Below, one piece after another: positions 17,874 through 23,137 of a DNA stretch of 64,000 nt (position 1 is the first letter of the stretch; each line of letters opens with the position of its first letter). This stretch comes from Xanthomonas rydalmerensis (lineage in GTDB: Bacteria > Pseudomonadota > Gammaproteobacteria > Xanthomonadales > Xanthomonadaceae), in the NCBI RefSeq assembly GCF_033170385.1, contig NZ_CP126170.1, forward strand, positions 3,558,001 through 3,622,000, written 5' to 3'. A model generated the notes under the pieces. It made no database searches and had not been told where the DNA came from. It saw only the letters and a list, made by a program, of their open reading frames with translations. The position numbers and the translations under genes were made by a program.

Positions 17874-19964
17874 ATGAGCGCATCGCAAGCCCCTGCCGTC
17901 CGCGGCATCATCCCCAAGCAGCCCATTCAGATCACCGGACAGCCACTGAGCGAACTGGCCGCCGACACCGCAGCGCTGAAGGCTCTGGTGCAGGCCGCGG
18001 TCAACGTGGAGCTCTTCACCATCCCGCTGTACATGTGCACGATGAAGTCGATCCAGGGCACGCACGCGATCAACGCCAGCGGCATTTCCTACTACAAGGG
18101 CCGCGTCTGGCCGGGCATGGCGACCGGCGTCGTGGTGCCTGCCGACGACACCTCGCCCGCGACTGCACCACAGCGCGCCTACAACCTGCTGTTCTCGGTC
18201 TTCATCGACGAGATGCTGCACCTGCAGATGGCGGCCAACATCTGCAACGCCGTTGGCGGGCAGCCCAATTTCAACAGCCCGCTGCTGCAGGACGCCAACT
18301 ACAACTGGATCTGCTACGGCCCCACGCAGACCGTCATTCCGCACGTGATCGATCTGCGCGACCTGAAAGATCCCTCGGTCGGCAGCAACCTGACCGTGCA
18401 GCTATCCGAACTGAGTGAAGACCAGGTCACGTTGTTCACCCTCATCGAGGAAGACCACGCGGCCGCACTCGCCAGGATCAAGTCCAACCCAGGTAATGCG
18501 TATTTCCCCCAGGTCCCGTTCGCGGACTGGACGGCACAAAGCAAGGAAACCGACCTGCCGCTGTTCGGGACGATCGGATGGATGTACTACAGCCTTTACC
18601 GGTACATGACCATCAAGTACGAGGACGGACAGCTGCTGTGGGAGAAACTGTTCGTCGGACCCGTCAGGCAGTGGGACCTGTTCAACAGCACGGCCAAGTC
18701 CGCGGAAAAGGAGTATCCGCTGATGCCGACGCAGATCACCGCCAAGGCCGCGGTGACCGCCGGCATGCAGGCGATCACCATGATGGCCGCCATCTGCGAC
18801 CAGGGCGAAGGCGGCATCGACGCATCGACCACCCGCGAGTTCCTGAACATGCTGCACGCGCGTGCGCTGGAGATTGGCATGTCCCTGGCCGAGATCAACA
18901 GCGTGGTTCCGACGTTCCAGCCGGACAAGGAGGCGATGGCCAACAACCACCCCTCCTATACCGACACCGGCGCATCGGCCACCTCCACGGATGCCGACGC
19001 ACGCGCGACCAATGGCGCCCTGGACCACCACCAGCGTTTCGAGAACCTGCTGGGACTGGTCGGACAGGTGCAGACCTGGAGCCAATGGCATGCGATTTCG
19101 AGCAACGTCTGGACGGGCGCGATGCTGACCACCTCCGATTTCGATCCCACCACCGCGCCAAGCAACATCCCCAAGCCCGACGACGTGGCCACCGCACTCA
19201 ACAATCTGAAAAAGGTCGATCCCACCGCGCTGGACAACGTCGCGCAAGGCGCGCTCGCCGGCATCACCACGGTGTTGAGCACGTCGTGGGGCGCCACCGA
19301 TGTCCAGTTCCCGTATCCGTCGATGGTCGGCTCCGGCGATCGCCTGGGCCTGTACTGGGCGATCTACGGCAGCGCGCCCACCTTGCAGAAGGTGACCAGC
19401 AGCACGCAGGCGACAAGCACACTGCTGCACGCCTGCCAGGGACTCGCCCTCGATGGATCCGGCGGCGACTGCGCGGCGCCGGCGATCTATCACAGCTGCA
19501 AGGGTTCCAACCACTGCGCCACCCAGGGCGGCTGCGGATTCGTGCAATCGGTGGACGGCGGCGGCAATTGCTCGCAGGCCATCGGCGGCGGTTGCGGTCA
19601 GCGCGTCGCGGCGGCGGCACAGGCGGCGGCCAAGGCCGCAGCGGGCGAACAGGTCGGCGGAACCTGCGGCGCGCCCACGCTGTACAGCGCGCCAGCCAAC
19701 AACAAGTGCGGCGGCTTCGGCGGTTGTGCCGTGCCGATCTCGGCATCGCAACTCTATCCGGCTGCCGGCACCATGCAGGTCTTCGACTTCACCGCCCCGG
19801 ACAACACCCCGACGCCCTTGACGACGCAGGCGTTCGCCGTCGGCGATGCGGTCTACGACATCGCGTGGGATGCATACAAGAAGGTGATGACCGAGCGCAA
19901 ACTGCCGGTGGGCGACCAGCCAAAGCCCACCGACCTGCGCGTCGCCCTGCCGCCCTCGACCTGA
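17874..19964 (+). CDS. Ferritin-like (VioB-type) protein with Cys-rich C-terminal tail, likely MNIO substrate
   Basis: First gene of a four-gene operon. Residues about 25-200 form a ferritin-like iron-binding fold resembling the N-terminal half of VioB/iminophenylpyruvate dimer synthases. Candidate metal ligands are E46 in NVELFTIPLY, E113 and H116 in FIDEMLHLQMA, and E192/H195 in IEEDHAA. A middle region to residue 520 is unrecognised. Residues 521-620 hold ten cysteines (521, 533, 542, 548, 554, 566, 574, 598, 612, 618), often in GGC context. The next gene is an MNIO oxidase, a family that modifies Cys-containing precursor peptides, so I infer that this tail may be the modified part. No signal peptide was seen. 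696 residues. The start is supported by GGAGAAGG. Function unproven. Confidence 0.75.
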   Translation: MSASQAPAVRGIIPKQPIQITGQPLSELAADTAALKALVQAAVNVELFTIPLYMCTMKSIQGTHAINASGISYYKGRVWPGMATGVVVPADDTSPATAPQRAYNLLFSVFIDEMLHLQMAANICNAVGGQPNFNSPLLQDANYNWICYGPTQTVIPHVIDLRDLKDPSVGSNLTVQLSELSEDQVTLFTLIEEDHAAALARIKSNPGNAYFPQVPFADWTAQSKETDLPLFGTIGWMYYSLYRYMTIKYEDGQLLWEKLFVGPVRQWDLFNSTAKSAEKEYPLMPTQITAKAAVTAGMQAITMMAAICDQGEGGIDASTTREFLNMLHARALEIGMSLAEINSVVPTFQPDKEAMANNHPSYTDTGASATSTDADARATNGALDHHQRFENLLGLVGQVQTWSQWHAISSNVWTGAMLTTSDFDPTTAPSNIPKPDDVATALNNLKKVDPTALDNVAQGALAGITTVLSTSWGATDVQFPYPSMVGSGDRLGLYWAIYGSAPTLQKVTSSTQATSTLLHACQGLALDGSGGDCAAPAIYHSCKGSNHCATQGGCGFVQSVDGGGNCSQAIGGGCGQRVAAAAQAAAKAAAGEQVGGTCGAPTLYSAPANNKCGGFGGCAVPISASQLYPAAGTMQVFDFTAPDNTPTPLTTQAFAVGDAVYDIAWDAYKKVMTERKLPVGDQPKPTDLRVALPPST
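19434..19733 (+). other. Cys-rich segment, two imperfect repeats inside the ferritin-like gene
   Basis: Codes for residues 521-620. Two units align: C533-xAPAIYHSC-x5-C-x5-C554 and C598-xAPTLYSAP-x5-C-x5-C618. Both run from a Cys-x-AP opening through Tyr to a GGC end of nearly the same span (21 and 20 residues). The second unit lacks the Cys equivalent to C542. Between them lie C566 and C574 and a run of Ala. Confidence 0.7.
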
Positions 19965-19976
19965 GGAGGCAAGGCG

Positions 19977-20945
19977 ATGGCGGACATGGCAGACCCGACG
20001 CGCGCGCGGCCGCAGCAGGCAGCGCCAAATGCCGCACCACCGCGTCTGGGCCTGCCGAACCTGGGCTTCGGCGTCGGCCTGCGCCCGCAGCATCTCCCGG
20101 CCATTCTGGCCGGGGGAGCGCGTGTGGACTGGTTCGAGATCATCTCCGAAAACTACATCGAGGACGCCGGCTACCAGCGCGCGATGTTGAACGCGCTCGC
20201 CAAGCAGACGCCCATCGTCATGCATGGGGTCTGTCTTTCGATCGGATCGGACGCACCGCTGGATCACGACTATCTCGGCAAGCTCAAGCGCCTGGCGCGC
20301 GACGTCGACGCGGCATGGATCTCGGACCATCTGTGCTGGACCGGACTCGGCTCGCACAATGCGCACGATCTGCTGCCGTTGCCGTTCAATGCGGAATCCT
20401 TCGCGCATGTGCGCGATCGCGTGCTGCAGGTCCAGGACATCCTGGGCAGGCCGCTGGTGCTGGAGAACCCCTCCAGCTACGTGCAGTTCCAGACCTCGAC
20501 CATGCCCGAATGGGAGTTCCTCGGCGGCCTGGCCGATGCCACCGACTGCGGCATTCTGCTCGACGTCAACAACGTCTACGTGAGCGCGCACAACCATCGC
20601 TTCGATCCCGAGCGCTACCTGCGCGCCCTGCCCGCCGATCACGTGGTGCAACTGCACCTGGCCGGCCCCACCCGCCACGGCGATTGCCTGATCGACACCC
20701 ACGACCAACCGGTGCCTGGCCGCGTCTGGGAACTGTATGCGCTCGCGCAGCAACTCACCGGCGGCGTGTCCACCCTGCTGGAATGGGACGCCAGGCTGCC
20801 GGACTACGACGGCCTGCTGGAAGAACTGGACAAGGCACGCGCCGTCATGGCCGGCACGATGCCGGCCATGGCCGATCCCGTCTGCGCCGAGCACGCCGTG
20901 TCCACGCCGTTGCACTACGCACCAAGGGAACCTGCCGATGCCTGA
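19977..20945 (+). CDS. MNIO-family iron oxidase (DUF692)
   Basis: Multinuclear non-heme iron-dependent oxidase family (MbnB, TglH and bufferin enzymes are characterised members), which oxidises cysteines of precursor peptides in the cytoplasm. Metal-ligand and family motifs are complete: H39 in GLRPQH, E54 and E58 in FEIISENY, H83 in MHGVCLSIG, D117/H118 in SDHLCW, E163/N164 in LENPSSY, D196 in DVNNVYVSAH, H227 in QLHLAG, H234 in TRHGD, D240 and H242 in IDTHD, and E269 in LEWD. 322 residues, a TIM barrel of normal size. AGGAGG overlaps the preceding stop and the gene sits 12 bp after it. The chemistry on this substrate is unknown. Confidence 0.92.
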   Translation: MADMADPTRARPQQAAPNAAPPRLGLPNLGFGVGLRPQHLPAILAGGARVDWFEIISENYIEDAGYQRAMLNALAKQTPIVMHGVCLSIGSDAPLDHDYLGKLKRLARDVDAAWISDHLCWTGLGSHNAHDLLPLPFNAESFAHVRDRVLQVQDILGRPLVLENPSSYVQFQTSTMPEWEFLGGLADATDCGILLDVNNVYVSAHNHRFDPERYLRALPADHVVQLHLAGPTRHGDCLIDTHDQPVPGRVWELYALAQQLTGGVSTLLEWDARLPDYDGLLEELDKARAVMAGTMPAMADPVCAEHAVSTPLHYAPREPADA

Positions 20946-21876
20946 CGCCGCCGTCATCGGAACGGCGCCGGCAGCGCTCGCCCACGTGCAGCGCTGGATG
21001 CTGAGCGCCACCACGCATCCTGGCGGACTCGCGGCTGGCCTCCGCTACGCCGGCGACCTGCACGGATTGGATGCCGCCAGGCTGCTGACGTTGCCGGAGG
21101 GGGTCGATCCGCAGGCGCGACTGGCGATCTACGCCAACGGCTATTGGCAACGCCTGATCGAGGCGCTGCGTGCCGAATTCCCGGCACTGTGCCGCCTGCT
21201 CGGCGACGACCTGTTCGGCTTCTTCGCCCGTGCCTACCTCAGCGCGCGCCCGCCGCGTGCGCCATCGCTGCATACGCTGGGTGCGGGATTTCCCGCCTTC
21301 CTGCGCGCTTCCCAGCGCCGCCAGGGCCAGGCGCGTGATCGCTTCCCCGTGCAACTGGCGTGGCTGGAGCGCACCCTGGCCGAGGCCAGCCGTGCCGAGG
21401 GCCTGGAAGCCGCAGCGCAGGCGCCAGCCGTCGACGCCTCTGCGCTCGCGCTCGGCTGGCCCTGCCGCATCGGCGTGCCAGCGACCACCCGCTTGGCCAT
21501 GCTGTCCTATCCATGCGCCGCGTTTCGCGATTGGCTGTCCGGCACCGCGACCTCGGTGCCGGAACCCGCGCAACCCAGCTTCCTGTGCATTGGCCGCCAT
21601 CGGTTCCGCACCACCATCGCAGCGCTGAGCGATTGGCAGTTCTTCGCGTTGCGCCATGCCGTGCGCGGACGACGTCCACTGCAGGCCTGCGCCCAGGCGG
21701 CCGCGCGGCGCACCGGCCGCGATACGGGCGAGGTGTTGGCCCTGCTCGCGCTGTGGCTGCCCGATGCGCAGGCATCGAGCCTGGTGACGCTGACACCGCT
21801 CAACACGCCCGCACCGCCGGCTTTGCACCTCCCCAGCGCTTTCATCCACCGCGACAAGGACACCGCACATGACTGA
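20938..21876 (+). CDS. DUF2063 partner protein (putative peptide-recognition subunit of the MNIO)
   Basis: Family commonly encoded next to DUF692 enzymes, with an N-terminal PF09836-like domain. Seen: ARLAIYANGYWQRLIEALRAEFPALCRLLGDDLFGFFARAYL and PPRAPSLHTLGAGFPAFL. In studied MNIO systems the partner binds the leader or substrate peptide and holds it for the oxidase. The C-terminal 150 residues are less typical. 312 residues. It begins 8 bp inside the MNIO gene, so the two proteins are made together. A DNA-binding role, suggested by the Pfam name, is possible but less likely here. Confidence 0.85.
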   Translation: MPDAAVIGTAPAALAHVQRWMLSATTHPGGLAAGLRYAGDLHGLDAARLLTLPEGVDPQARLAIYANGYWQRLIEALRAEFPALCRLLGDDLFGFFARAYLSARPPRAPSLHTLGAGFPAFLRASQRRQGQARDRFPVQLAWLERTLAEASRAEGLEAAAQAPAVDASALALGWPCRIGVPATTRLAMLSYPCAAFRDWLSGTATSVPEPAQPSFLCIGRHRFRTTIAALSDWQFFALRHAVRGRRPLQACAQAAARRTGRDTGEVLALLALWLPDAQASSLVTLTPLNTPAPPALHLPSAFIHRDKDTAHD

Positions 21877-23137
21877 CATGAACGAAAGTGCGCTCGACAC
21901 GCACTACCGGAACAGCTTCGGCTGGCTCGCCGGCTACTTGCCGGAAGATCGCAGCGGCCTGCGGCACTGGCATGCCGCGTTTCGCGAACGCGCCCTGCGA
22001 CACCGCGACGGCACGGCACCCGGTTATGCGCACGATGCCGTGCAACACCTGGCCGACCTGATCGCGACCGACCCGATCGTGCGGATGTACGCGACCGAGG
22101 CCATCGCCCAGATCGTCCAGCAACCGCCAAACATCACCTCCATCGACGACATGCTGGCGCAACTGGACCTGATCTGCACCACCGCGCCCGAGTACAACGC
22201 CAACCCGAACAAGCGCGTGCTGTTTCCCATGTCGGCGTTGTTCGTCGACATGATGGCGACCCCGGCCGGCAAGGCGCTGTTCCGTCTCGACGCCTTCAAC
22301 GAAGGCCTCCGCGCCATCCTCGAGACCTGGGCCGCCTATCTCGACAGCCCGGCGAGTTGCTCGGTACTGAATCCGGACCCGGTGACCGGTTGGCTCGGCA
22401 CGGCCGCCATCGCTGAATTCAAGCTCGCCGACTTCGTGATCGACTGGGACGCCGAGTACGGCGGCTTCGGCTCCTACAACGCGTTCTTCCATCGCGAGAT
22501 CCAGTCCAAGGTTCGCCCCATCGCCGGCGTCGGCAACCCCGGCATCGTCACCTCGCCGAACGATGGGACGGTCTACCGCATCGCCACCGGCGTGCAGCAG
22601 ACCGCGGTGTTCTGGATCAAGGAGAAGGCCTACTCCTTGCAGGACATGCTGGCCAACCCCGACCCGGCGACGCTGCAGCGCTTCGTCGGCGGCACCGTCG
22701 TGCAAATCTTCCTGAGCGGTGCCGACTACCACCGCTGGCACGCACCGGTCGACGGCGTAGTGGCGTATCGCAACGTGGACGGACTGCTGTTCAGCGAAAA
22801 CGAGGACAGCACGTTCGATAAAGATGCCGGCGTGACCTCGCAGGTGTACGGCGCAGCCGTCAACAACCGCGGCATCGTCGCCATCACCGCCGACGACGCG
22901 CGGATCGGCACGGTGTTCGTCATGCCGATCGGCATCACCGAGATTTCCTCGCTGACCCAGACCGTGGCCGACGGCCAGCACGTCAGCAAGGGCGAGGAGC
23001 TCGGCTATTTCAGCTACGGCGGATCGACGCTGTGCGTGGTGTTCGAGAAGAAGGTGTCGCTGAACTTCGGCGCCCTCAAGCAGGGCGCGACCCTCCAGGT
23101 CAACGCGCAACTGGCGACGGTGAACCTCCCGGTCTGA
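21869..23137 (+). CDS. Phosphatidylserine-decarboxylase-like pyruvoyl enzyme
   Basis: Self-cleaving pyruvoyl-dependent decarboxylase family. The C-terminal half carries FFHREI...RPIAG, HRWHAPVDG with the catalytic His, and the cleavage site G385-S386 in YGGSTLCVVFEK, where Ser would become the pyruvoyl group. The N-terminal 170 residues resemble the PSD-associated domain (PF12588) seen in decarboxylases such as fungal PsiD, which act on amino acids rather than on lipids. No membrane segment is evident, unlike the housekeeping Psd. The gene overlaps the DUF2063 stop by 8 bp, so it belongs to the operon. I infer a role in finishing the MNIO product or providing a small amine. The substrate is unknown. 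Confidence 0.8.
   Translation: MTDMNESALDTHYRNSFGWLAGYLPEDRSGLRHWHAAFRERALRHRDGTAPGYAHDAVQHLADLIATDPIVRMYATEAIAQIVQQPPNITSIDDMLAQLDLICTTAPEYNANPNKRVLFPMSALFVDMMATPAGKALFRLDAFNEGLRAILETWAAYLDSPASCSVLNPDPVTGWLGTAAIAEFKLADFVIDWDAEYGGFGSYNAFFHREIQSKVRPIAGVGNPGIVTSPNDGTVYRIATGVQQTAVFWIKEKAYSLQDMLANPDPATLQRFVGGTVVQIFLSGADYHRWHAPVDGVVAYRNVDGLLFSENEDSTFDKDAGVTSQVYGAAVNNRGIVAITADDARIGTVFVMPIGITEISSLTQTVADGQHVSKGEELGYFSYGGSTLCVVFEKKVSLNFGALKQGATLQVNAQLATVNLPV

Follow-up and report, generated by a model that had tools for sequence, protein, structure and literature searches.

MNIO chemistry has so far been described on peptides, most of them exported copper binders or natural products. The closest described systems are the bufferins and captophorins (BufA1, BufA2 and EGKCG-oxazolin), in which a Cys-rich substrate, a BufB-type MNIO and a DUF2063 partner are encoded in that order. 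According to PMC13097082, 5-thiooxazoles are installed by PME1-dependent MNIOs, each Cys losing 4 Da, and a Phe (in Lys-Cys enzymes) or an Asp (in Cys-Lys enzymes) beside the catalytic Asp steers substrate choice. According to PMC12452194, precursors with a Sec signal are accompanied by DUF2063 partners, and those that lack one by partners of other kinds; signal-less precursors were collected there without size limit, and it was already proposed that MNIOs may modify proteins (Antoine et al., 2025). Here, a unit from Xanthomonas rydalmerensis is described that shares enzyme type, partner, gene order and Cys-rich substrate candidate with the bufferin systems, the candidate being a domain built into a ferritin-like protein of 696 residues. 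It lies in the window, a stretch of 64,000 nucleotides of contig NZ_CP126170.1 (3,558,001 to 3,622,000) in a genome of 5.04 Mb assembled as a single contig; positions below are those of the window.

Four genes adjoin on the + strand, as an earlier note on this DNA had read them and as the coordinates of the open reading frames (ORFs) and the Pfam matches (PF12902, PF05114, DUF2063, PSD) bear out: the ferritin-like gene (17874..19964), the MNIO gene (19977..20945), the DUF2063 partner gene (20938..21876) and a gene for a PSD-like decarboxylase (21869..23137). A ribosome-binding-site-like sequence precedes the ATG at 17874, a gap of 12 bases separates the ferritin-like gene from the MNIO gene, and the two following junctions are overlaps of 8 bases each. 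Conservation, linkage, the coupling of domain and MNIO, a split form and the homology of the domain in both forms all point to the ferritin-like protein as the very probable substrate of the MNIO.

The ferritin-like protein and its Cys domain

Both profile match (PF12902, 75.4 bits against a cut-off of 22.3) and fold place the protein in the PF12902 ferritin-like family. The ferritin-like domain proper spans residues 39-316 (17988..18821, + strand), and its metal-ligand positions are conserved: E46, E113, H116 and E192 are present in 22/22 cases, E312 and H385, the latter beyond the Pfam range, in 21/22. The fold comparison covers model residues 27-502, and past residue 502 nothing convincing was found among the matches listed. 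No NCBIfam model matched the protein at E≤1. Among 8000 candidates scored, 590 relatives were found at E≤1e-10; the conservation counts given here refer to the 120 listed, which are mostly full length. The closest named relative among the matches listed, 89% identical, comes from a Xanthomonas metagenome-assembled genome.

Ten of the 14 Cys residues of the protein sit in residues 521-618, within a Cys-rich domain (residues 519-626; 19428..19751, + strand) that is the proposed MNIO target. When 14 Cys were placed at random, at least ten fell within 98 residues in 9 of 100,000 trials. The stronger argument for a real Cys cluster is conservation: Cys 521, 533, 542, 548, 554, 566, 598, 612 and 618 are each kept in 109-119 of the 120 relatives, which rules out a chance cluster, and the tenth, C574, is kept in only five. 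In two relatives (P0158 and P0159) the spacer of the domain is lengthened by CGGPTPTP- or CGGPKPP-like repeats, which add further Cys.

In the structure model, the blocks across residues 501-620 have a predicted local distance difference test (pLDDT) score of 46-74, and those of residues 621-696 reach 81-91. The end of the protein is nearly invariant as well, P693, P694, S695 and T696 each being kept in 117 of the 120 relatives, and on both grounds residues 627-696 (19752..19961, + strand; ending ...PPST) are treated as a separate C-terminal segment. Because 76 well-modelled residues lie beyond the Cys stretch, it is an internal segment with no free end, and the C-terminal Cys tail proposed in the earlier note has to be given up.

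The same note had held that no separate precursor is encoded, and none was found in the window. Cys-domain models searched against all window ORFs of at least 30 residues matched the ferritin-like ORF alone, and at E≤0.1 no NCBIfam bufferin model matched any of ten small + strand ORFs that lie within the four genes or directly ahead of them; a separate unannotated precursor in the window was rejected on these results. Elsewhere in the genome (L168:7124-8351, corresponding to G000:C1 ~1805123-1806350), a second, ordinary MNIO locus encodes an EGKCG-type precursor, 131 residues long, that looks secreted.

Linkage, split form and the ferritin-linked MNIO clade

The best 80 of the 172 relatives found were inspected as loci, in which the open frame of the ferritin-like protein has 609-908 residues. 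An MNIO gene lies downstream on the same strand in 78/80 loci, and the DUF2063 partner gene comes next in 77/80. The exceptions are loci at contig edges, reached past the ferritin-like gene in L007 and L039 and past the MNIO gene in L045, so that the counts become 78/78 and 77/77 where the contig permits a check. The hosts span at least four phyla (Pseudomonadota, Actinomycetota with Saccharothrix and Actinophytocola, Bacteroidota and Acidobacteriota), and the ferritin-like protein also occurs on two records of the plasmid collection, both from Pseudoalteromonas. The unit is patchy, since the genome of the window is its only carrier among 20 genomes of the genus. Across genomes, therefore, the ferritin-like, MNIO and partner genes of the set drawn in the earlier note form a conserved core, and its fourth gene, the decarboxylase gene, found in only 4/72 checkable loci, drops out of it.

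As a control, PF12902 was sought at E≤0.001 in two sets, 274 genomes from the class and 398 from the phylum. Besides the genome of the window, seven genomes of the class and 16 of the phylum gave matches, of which two fall short of the Pfam cut-off. Of these 23, four carry the Cys domain (L124, L125, L155 and L157), and all four adjoin an MNIO and a DUF2063 gene; the match of L155 to the window-type domain model is weak (E 1.9e-4). The remaining 19 matched neither the Cys-domain nor the MNIO or DUF2063 models, with at least 9 kb of sequence available in 15 of them. The chance probability of such a perfect 4 versus 19 split of domain and MNIO is 1/8855. L125 and L157 are taken to be identical with L061 and L056, so that these two overlap with the set of 80 loci and add no independent cases to it.

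The Cys domain was also found as a protein of its own. Locus L155 encodes a divergent fusion of 742 residues with 21 Cys in front of an MNIO, and this fusion was the only route to the stand-alone family: its Cys part, used as the query, gave 497 proteins at E≤0.001, of which the 120 listed, stand-alone Cys proteins, have 175-291 residues, 117 starting with Met. The stand-alone and window-type profiles align with an HHalign probability of 98.5% (E 1.5e-14) over the motifs HAC.GL, HTC..N.C..QGGCG and N.C...G.CA.PI.A. One stand-alone protein directly finds the ferritin-borne domains of L055, L058 and L081 (E 2e-6 to 6e-4; 3/18 genomes), and the stand-alone model matches 34/82 ferritin-like ORFs at E≤1e-3. 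In the family of a Sphingomonas, 4/298 genomes encode such a protein, and all four Sphingomonadaceae loci (L177-L180) have the split order on one strand: a domain-less ferritin-like gene, the gene for a Cys protein of 231–245 residues, the MNIO gene and the DUF2063 partner gene. In L180 the ferritin-like open frame exceeds the likely gene length.

The earlier note had named a small Cys precursor near the locus in relatives as a finding that would speak against its idea. Such a gene does exist in these distant relatives; because it is a homologous split form of the same domain, it supports the idea of a built-in substrate instead. Since the joined and split versions agree, the Cys part belongs to the ferritin-like protein and to the MNIO alike. 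The proposal that the Cys stretch is a substrate carried on an enzyme has thus gained partial support from comparative genomics (family-wide domain, linkage and split form), its wording as a tail apart.

Other arrangements were encountered. The second-type fusions L155 and L166 each stand before an MNIO. A third-type fusion, L167, is convergent with its MNIO and partner genes, the linkage being kept despite the changed orientation. In a second copy in Acanthopleuribacter (L181:5573-9196), 146 bases separate the ORF of the ferritin-like part from that of the Cys part; it resembles an interrupted gene and was not counted as a split form. When stand-alone relatives of the window-type domain were sought with residues 505-696, 57 matches of 109-332 residues were obtained and none was accepted, the 20 inspected resembling full-length proteins that are fragmentary or have a wrongly assigned start. 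For the stand-alone Cys protein, 78 genomes of the class of G416 gave one match, the known fusion; 289 genomes of the class of G572 (Caulobacter) gave two weak matches, one of them BufA2-like; eight genomes from another family led nowhere; and the plasmids gave no match. PHROGs gave no match either. In the own genome of the window the stand-alone alignment found nothing, a search that is uninformative because it also misses the window's own domain.

It could be asked whether the Cys domain is modified at all. Cys arrays are often structural, and the domain might simply bind metal or be stabilised by disulfides, the MNIO acting elsewhere and the operon being merely co-regulated. We regard this as very improbable in view of the linkage across phyla, the absence of the MNIO where the domain is absent, the split operon and the reoriented locus L167. 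Furthermore, the Cys domain is the least confidently modelled part, whether fused or stand-alone: the model of the stand-alone protein has a mean pLDDT of 44.4 (from a 20-row alignment), which may reflect the flexibility of a modification target.

The MNIO itself, of 322 residues, matches PF05114 (344.1 bits, cut-off 25) and belongs to the BufB type by the NCBIfam model MNIO_BufB (NF050167; 343.8 bits, cut-off 310). Directly before it, where the BufB definition places a bufferin precursor, stands the ferritin-like gene, 12 bases off. H83, H118, E163, H227, D240, H242, E269 and D271 are present in 111/111 MNIO rows of the alignment, and, by the alignment alone, the window enzyme shares 20 H/D/E/N columns and one Cys column with at least 95% of the rows. 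In a tree of 53 rows thinned from these 111, which covers the sampled sources only, the 34 ferritin-linked rows lie on one side of a branch with support 96/96; within that side there are 26 window-type fusions (99/95), six split or second-type rows (100/99), and L167 together with L181. Ferritin-linked MNIOs are therefore a dedicated clade among the enzymes sampled. Mean identity to the fused-type MNIOs is 48.8% for BufA2-linked, 39.6% for Buf1-linked and 34.8% for EGKCG-linked enzymes, the order at the root being weakly supported.

The residue that follows the invariant E-x-D is Ala in 77/80 fused-type MNIOs (Gly in two, Ser in one), Phe in 12/13 EGKCG-type and Asp in 4/4 BufA2-type enzymes. 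From this residue pattern, in an alignment that holds no FonB, we infer that the column is the selectivity position of PMC13097082. The distinct Ala at this putative position suggests that the fused-type enzymes act on a separate class of substrates. Three further MNIOs (L094, L095 and L098), which stand without a credible Cys precursor in a short flank, have the BufA2-type Asp there, and a BufA2-like precursor at L165:7212-7574 (- strand) has no MNIO in the 15 kb around it.

The partner protein is of PME-type 1 by its match to DUF2063 (PF09836, 73.7 bits, cut-off 27.2). The DUF2063 cut-off is likewise exceeded by all of the ten partners tested across the fused, split and convergent arrangements, four of Massilia included; the narrower HvfC model gives the window partner 27.7 bits against 142.

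Proposed role of the unit and its alternatives

Taken as a whole, the reading we hold to be probable is that the three core genes make and mature a single metalloprotein, presumably in the cytoplasm, on which the modified Cys domain is retained. The DUF2063 partner would present the Cys-rich domain to the MNIO, which would oxidise several of its Cys, most likely to thiooxazole-type groups, since the nearest characterised MNIO relatives do so. The modified domain would be neither cut off nor exported; it would stay on the protein or, in the split relatives, form a separate subunit, and would there bind metal or act as a redox group for the dimetal site in the ferritin-like domain. Gene order, conservation, linkage, the split form and the clade of the sampled MNIOs are observed; the modification, the Cys concerned, the chemistry and the role we infer. 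Three features favour such a metal or redox role at the ferritin-like site: the domain is fused, its split form lies with a ferritin-like gene in all cases seen, and a signal-peptide-like start is lacking. More specifically, the MNIO may be a cofactor builder, the Cys domain being a lasting metal or redox centre, fused or as a subunit, that feeds the dimetal site; this part of the proposal is tentative, and we would put it at somewhat less than an even chance.

Retention of the domain is suggested because no signal-peptide-like start precedes it and a conserved, confidently modelled C-terminus follows it. Start regions were scored by a crude hydropathy test with a threshold of 1.6, for which BufA2-type precursors served as the control. 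All five controls exceeded the threshold, as did 5/72 ferritin-like relatives, the window protein not among them, and 0/120 stand-alone Cys proteins. Two of these five relatives have starts in or near ferritin helix 1 (P0073 and P0102), one has a second Met located after the hydrophobic stretch (P0108) and two are barely above the threshold (P0090 and P0100; 1.66 and 1.67), so that none has a classical-looking signal peptide at its likely start. These results also bear on another explanation, by which the ferritin-like domain tailors the MNIO-modified Cys domain in cis and the modified part is afterwards set free as a peptide metallophore, the whole protein being a long precursor of a ribosomally synthesized and post-translationally modified peptide (RiPP). 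The gene order is indeed the classical one of precursor, MNIO and partner (PMC12452194), the metal-ligand set of the ferritin-like domain is kept, and the stand-alone Cys protein models as unfolded. Release is nevertheless unlikely, given the conserved segment and near-invariant end beyond the Cys domain, the lack of a signal-peptide-like start and the lack, among the top 30 neighbour families, of one at a fixed place across genera; the PF12902 fold, moreover, has other functions, 19/23 sampled genomes having neither Cys domain nor MNIO.

Several observations weigh against maturation of a retained metalloprotein domain. The unit departs from the rule given in PMC12452194 for the precursors it describes, as a DUF2063 partner is combined here with a substrate that has no Sec-like signal. 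The stand-alone Cys proteins match the BufA2 model, though below its cut-off (17-25 against 60 bits); two of four BufA2 precursors in turn match the stand-alone model (9e-6 and 4e-5), and HHalign to BufA2 gives the ferritin-borne domain 54.7% and its stand-alone counterpart 83.8%, all of this being a weak link to the nearest known type of substrate. The stand-alone model misses the window's own Cys domain. Outside the fused type, the other eight ferritin-linked MNIO rows are mixed at the putative selectivity position (Gly 4, Ser 1, Asp 1, Glu 1 and Ala 1). In 11 locus groups an ABC-transporter-like family, so named from its sequence, lies no more than 10 kb away, scattered over offsets of about -9 kb to +7 kb and on both strands, and leaves room for export. 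Finally, the conserved Cys array could be structural, and the service of the Cys domain to the ferritin-like site is itself a deduction.

As for BufA2, it is the nearest known type for both enzyme and Cys domain, a possible relation that is taken as a lead only. Direct BufA2 membership of the ferritin-borne domain was rejected on its HHalign value and the lack of an NCBIfam match: the window domain found no bufferin family (DUF2282, BufA2, EGKCG) in NCBIfam or Pfam at E≤5. The negative controls EGKCG and Buf1 gave 0.1-0.3% in HHalign.

The fourth gene of the window (21869..23137, + strand) encodes a pyruvoyl-type decarboxylase of 422 residues, which is of the PSD/PsiD type by its matches to PF02666 (131 bits) and PF12588 (115.3 bits) and by a GGST in its translation, which we take to be the autoprocessing motif of these enzymes. 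It occurs in 4/80 loci, three of Xanthomonas and one of Actinophytocola, with eight loci too short to tell. A four-gene core was rejected on this count: the decarboxylase is accessory, outside the conserved unit, and probably contributes an extra function in Xanthomonas and one actinomycete. In one Xanthomonas contig the PSD-like gene appears as a pair of ORFs (L004:5115-6382).

It is on this gene that a further explanation turns, a small-molecule pathway in which a VioB/RebD-like PF12902 enzyme acts on an amino-acid-derived substrate that the decarboxylase would supply or consume, with MNIO-built metal binding as support. Two of the 120 listed relatives (P0025 and P0020, the latter cut shorter) carry a UniRef label that begins 'Iminophenyl-pyruvate d', the PSD-like gene has the same place in Xanthomonas and Actinophytocola, and a flavoprotein gene, presumably amine-oxidase-like as judged from its sequence, lies by the split unit of L179 (L179:2774-4750, - strand), with relatives in L073 and L077 (3/104 loci searched). 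Given that the decarboxylase is restricted to 4/72 checkable loci and that the ferritin-like protein matches no NCBIfam model, such a pathway is rather unlikely. It is compatible with maturation of a metalloprotein, which it does not exclude.

The wider surroundings vary. In the window the flanks appear unrelated, with GH53 and GH2 enzymes upstream and a PhoD-like phosphatase, a TonB-dependent receptor and FecR downstream. A DyP-type peroxidase gene lies just upstream of the ferritin-like gene in six Mucilaginibacter loci (L060, L063, L068, L073, L077 and L083) and about 7.5 kb from the unit in L071, whose protein was checked with Pfam. Six Caulobacter loci (L036-L038, L048, L051 and L054) have a very large protein upstream, which in L038 has RTX and cadherin-like domains. 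Another neighbour, at L179:4844-5725, has relatives in L022, L151 and L180. A conserved wider neighbourhood was rejected: DyP, phage-collar-like, RTX, ABC-transporter-like and amine-oxidase-like genes are found only in some genera or are scattered, and among the top 30 neighbour families, which were not annotated singly, none holds a fixed place across genera.

Comparison with known systems

The earlier note knew of no described pathway with this gene set, which agrees with the open-access literature searched (most subscription journals and supplements lie outside it): no paper came up there that pairs, by title, ferritin or a ferritin-like protein with MNIO, DUF692, MbnB, bufferin, captophorin or RiPP. 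Among the papers listed, those that pair ferritin with another such term are medical or concern nanoparticles by title, apart from PMC8224329, whose relevant passages are one reference and a table of copper-induced genes. The word 'ferritin' does not occur in the main text of PMC12452194 or of PMC13097082. Members of the family may stand unnamed in the supplements of PMC12452194, or overlap its adjamnio families.

Those adjamnio families (adjamnio-1, -2 and -I) are alike in that they have no Sec signal, contain Cys and are adjacent to an MNIO, and adjamnio-I, with 122-293 residues and 8-21 Cys, resembles the stand-alone Cys proteins found here. They are described with PME-type 2 partners, whereas 10/10 partners tested here, split form included, are DUF2063 proteins (PME-type 1); the two are set apart by description only (PMC12452194). 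The TIGR04222 proteins and the fusions MerC|Buf, Buf1|cytochrome c|FGE-sulfatase and Buf_EGKCG|EF-hand are likewise large Cys-rich proteins beside MNIOs. In the relevant passages of the same paper, however, they are described as membrane-bound, transmembrane-helix or signal-peptide families, and the TIGR04222 loci as being without DUF2063 genes.

On the side of the ferritin-like protein, the PF12902 proteins of VioB/RebD type and CC_0557 (PDB 3hl1) are alike in fold and metal-ligand positions; elsewhere, in 19/23 sampled genomes, such proteins have neither the Cys domain nor an MNIO at the match. In the gamma subunit of quinohemoprotein amine dehydrogenase and in LodA/GoxA, a dedicated enzyme encoded next to the protein converts part of it, after translation, into a cofactor that stays in place. 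These proteins have other folds and another chemistry, and the likeness is a functional analogy for which no homology is claimed. A distant parallel is that PF12902 genes adjoin fungal lodA-like quinoprotein genes (PMC4417212).

If the proposed reading is true, the unit would provide an MNIO-made protein-derived cofactor and a RiPP-type substrate domesticated as part of an enzyme. The unit appears to apply an MNIO and its partner to a domain of a ferritin-like protein and so to finish an enzyme, and through it the question whether MNIOs modify proteins, and what for, becomes testable; a comparison set of fused, split and convergent forms, together with ferritin-like relatives that have no Cys domain, is at hand. 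Compared with the bufferins and captophorins, with which enzyme type, partner and gene order are shared, the present systems differ in a candidate substrate that is a ferritin-like protein without a signal-peptide-like start, and in an MNIO with a clade and a putative selectivity residue of its own.

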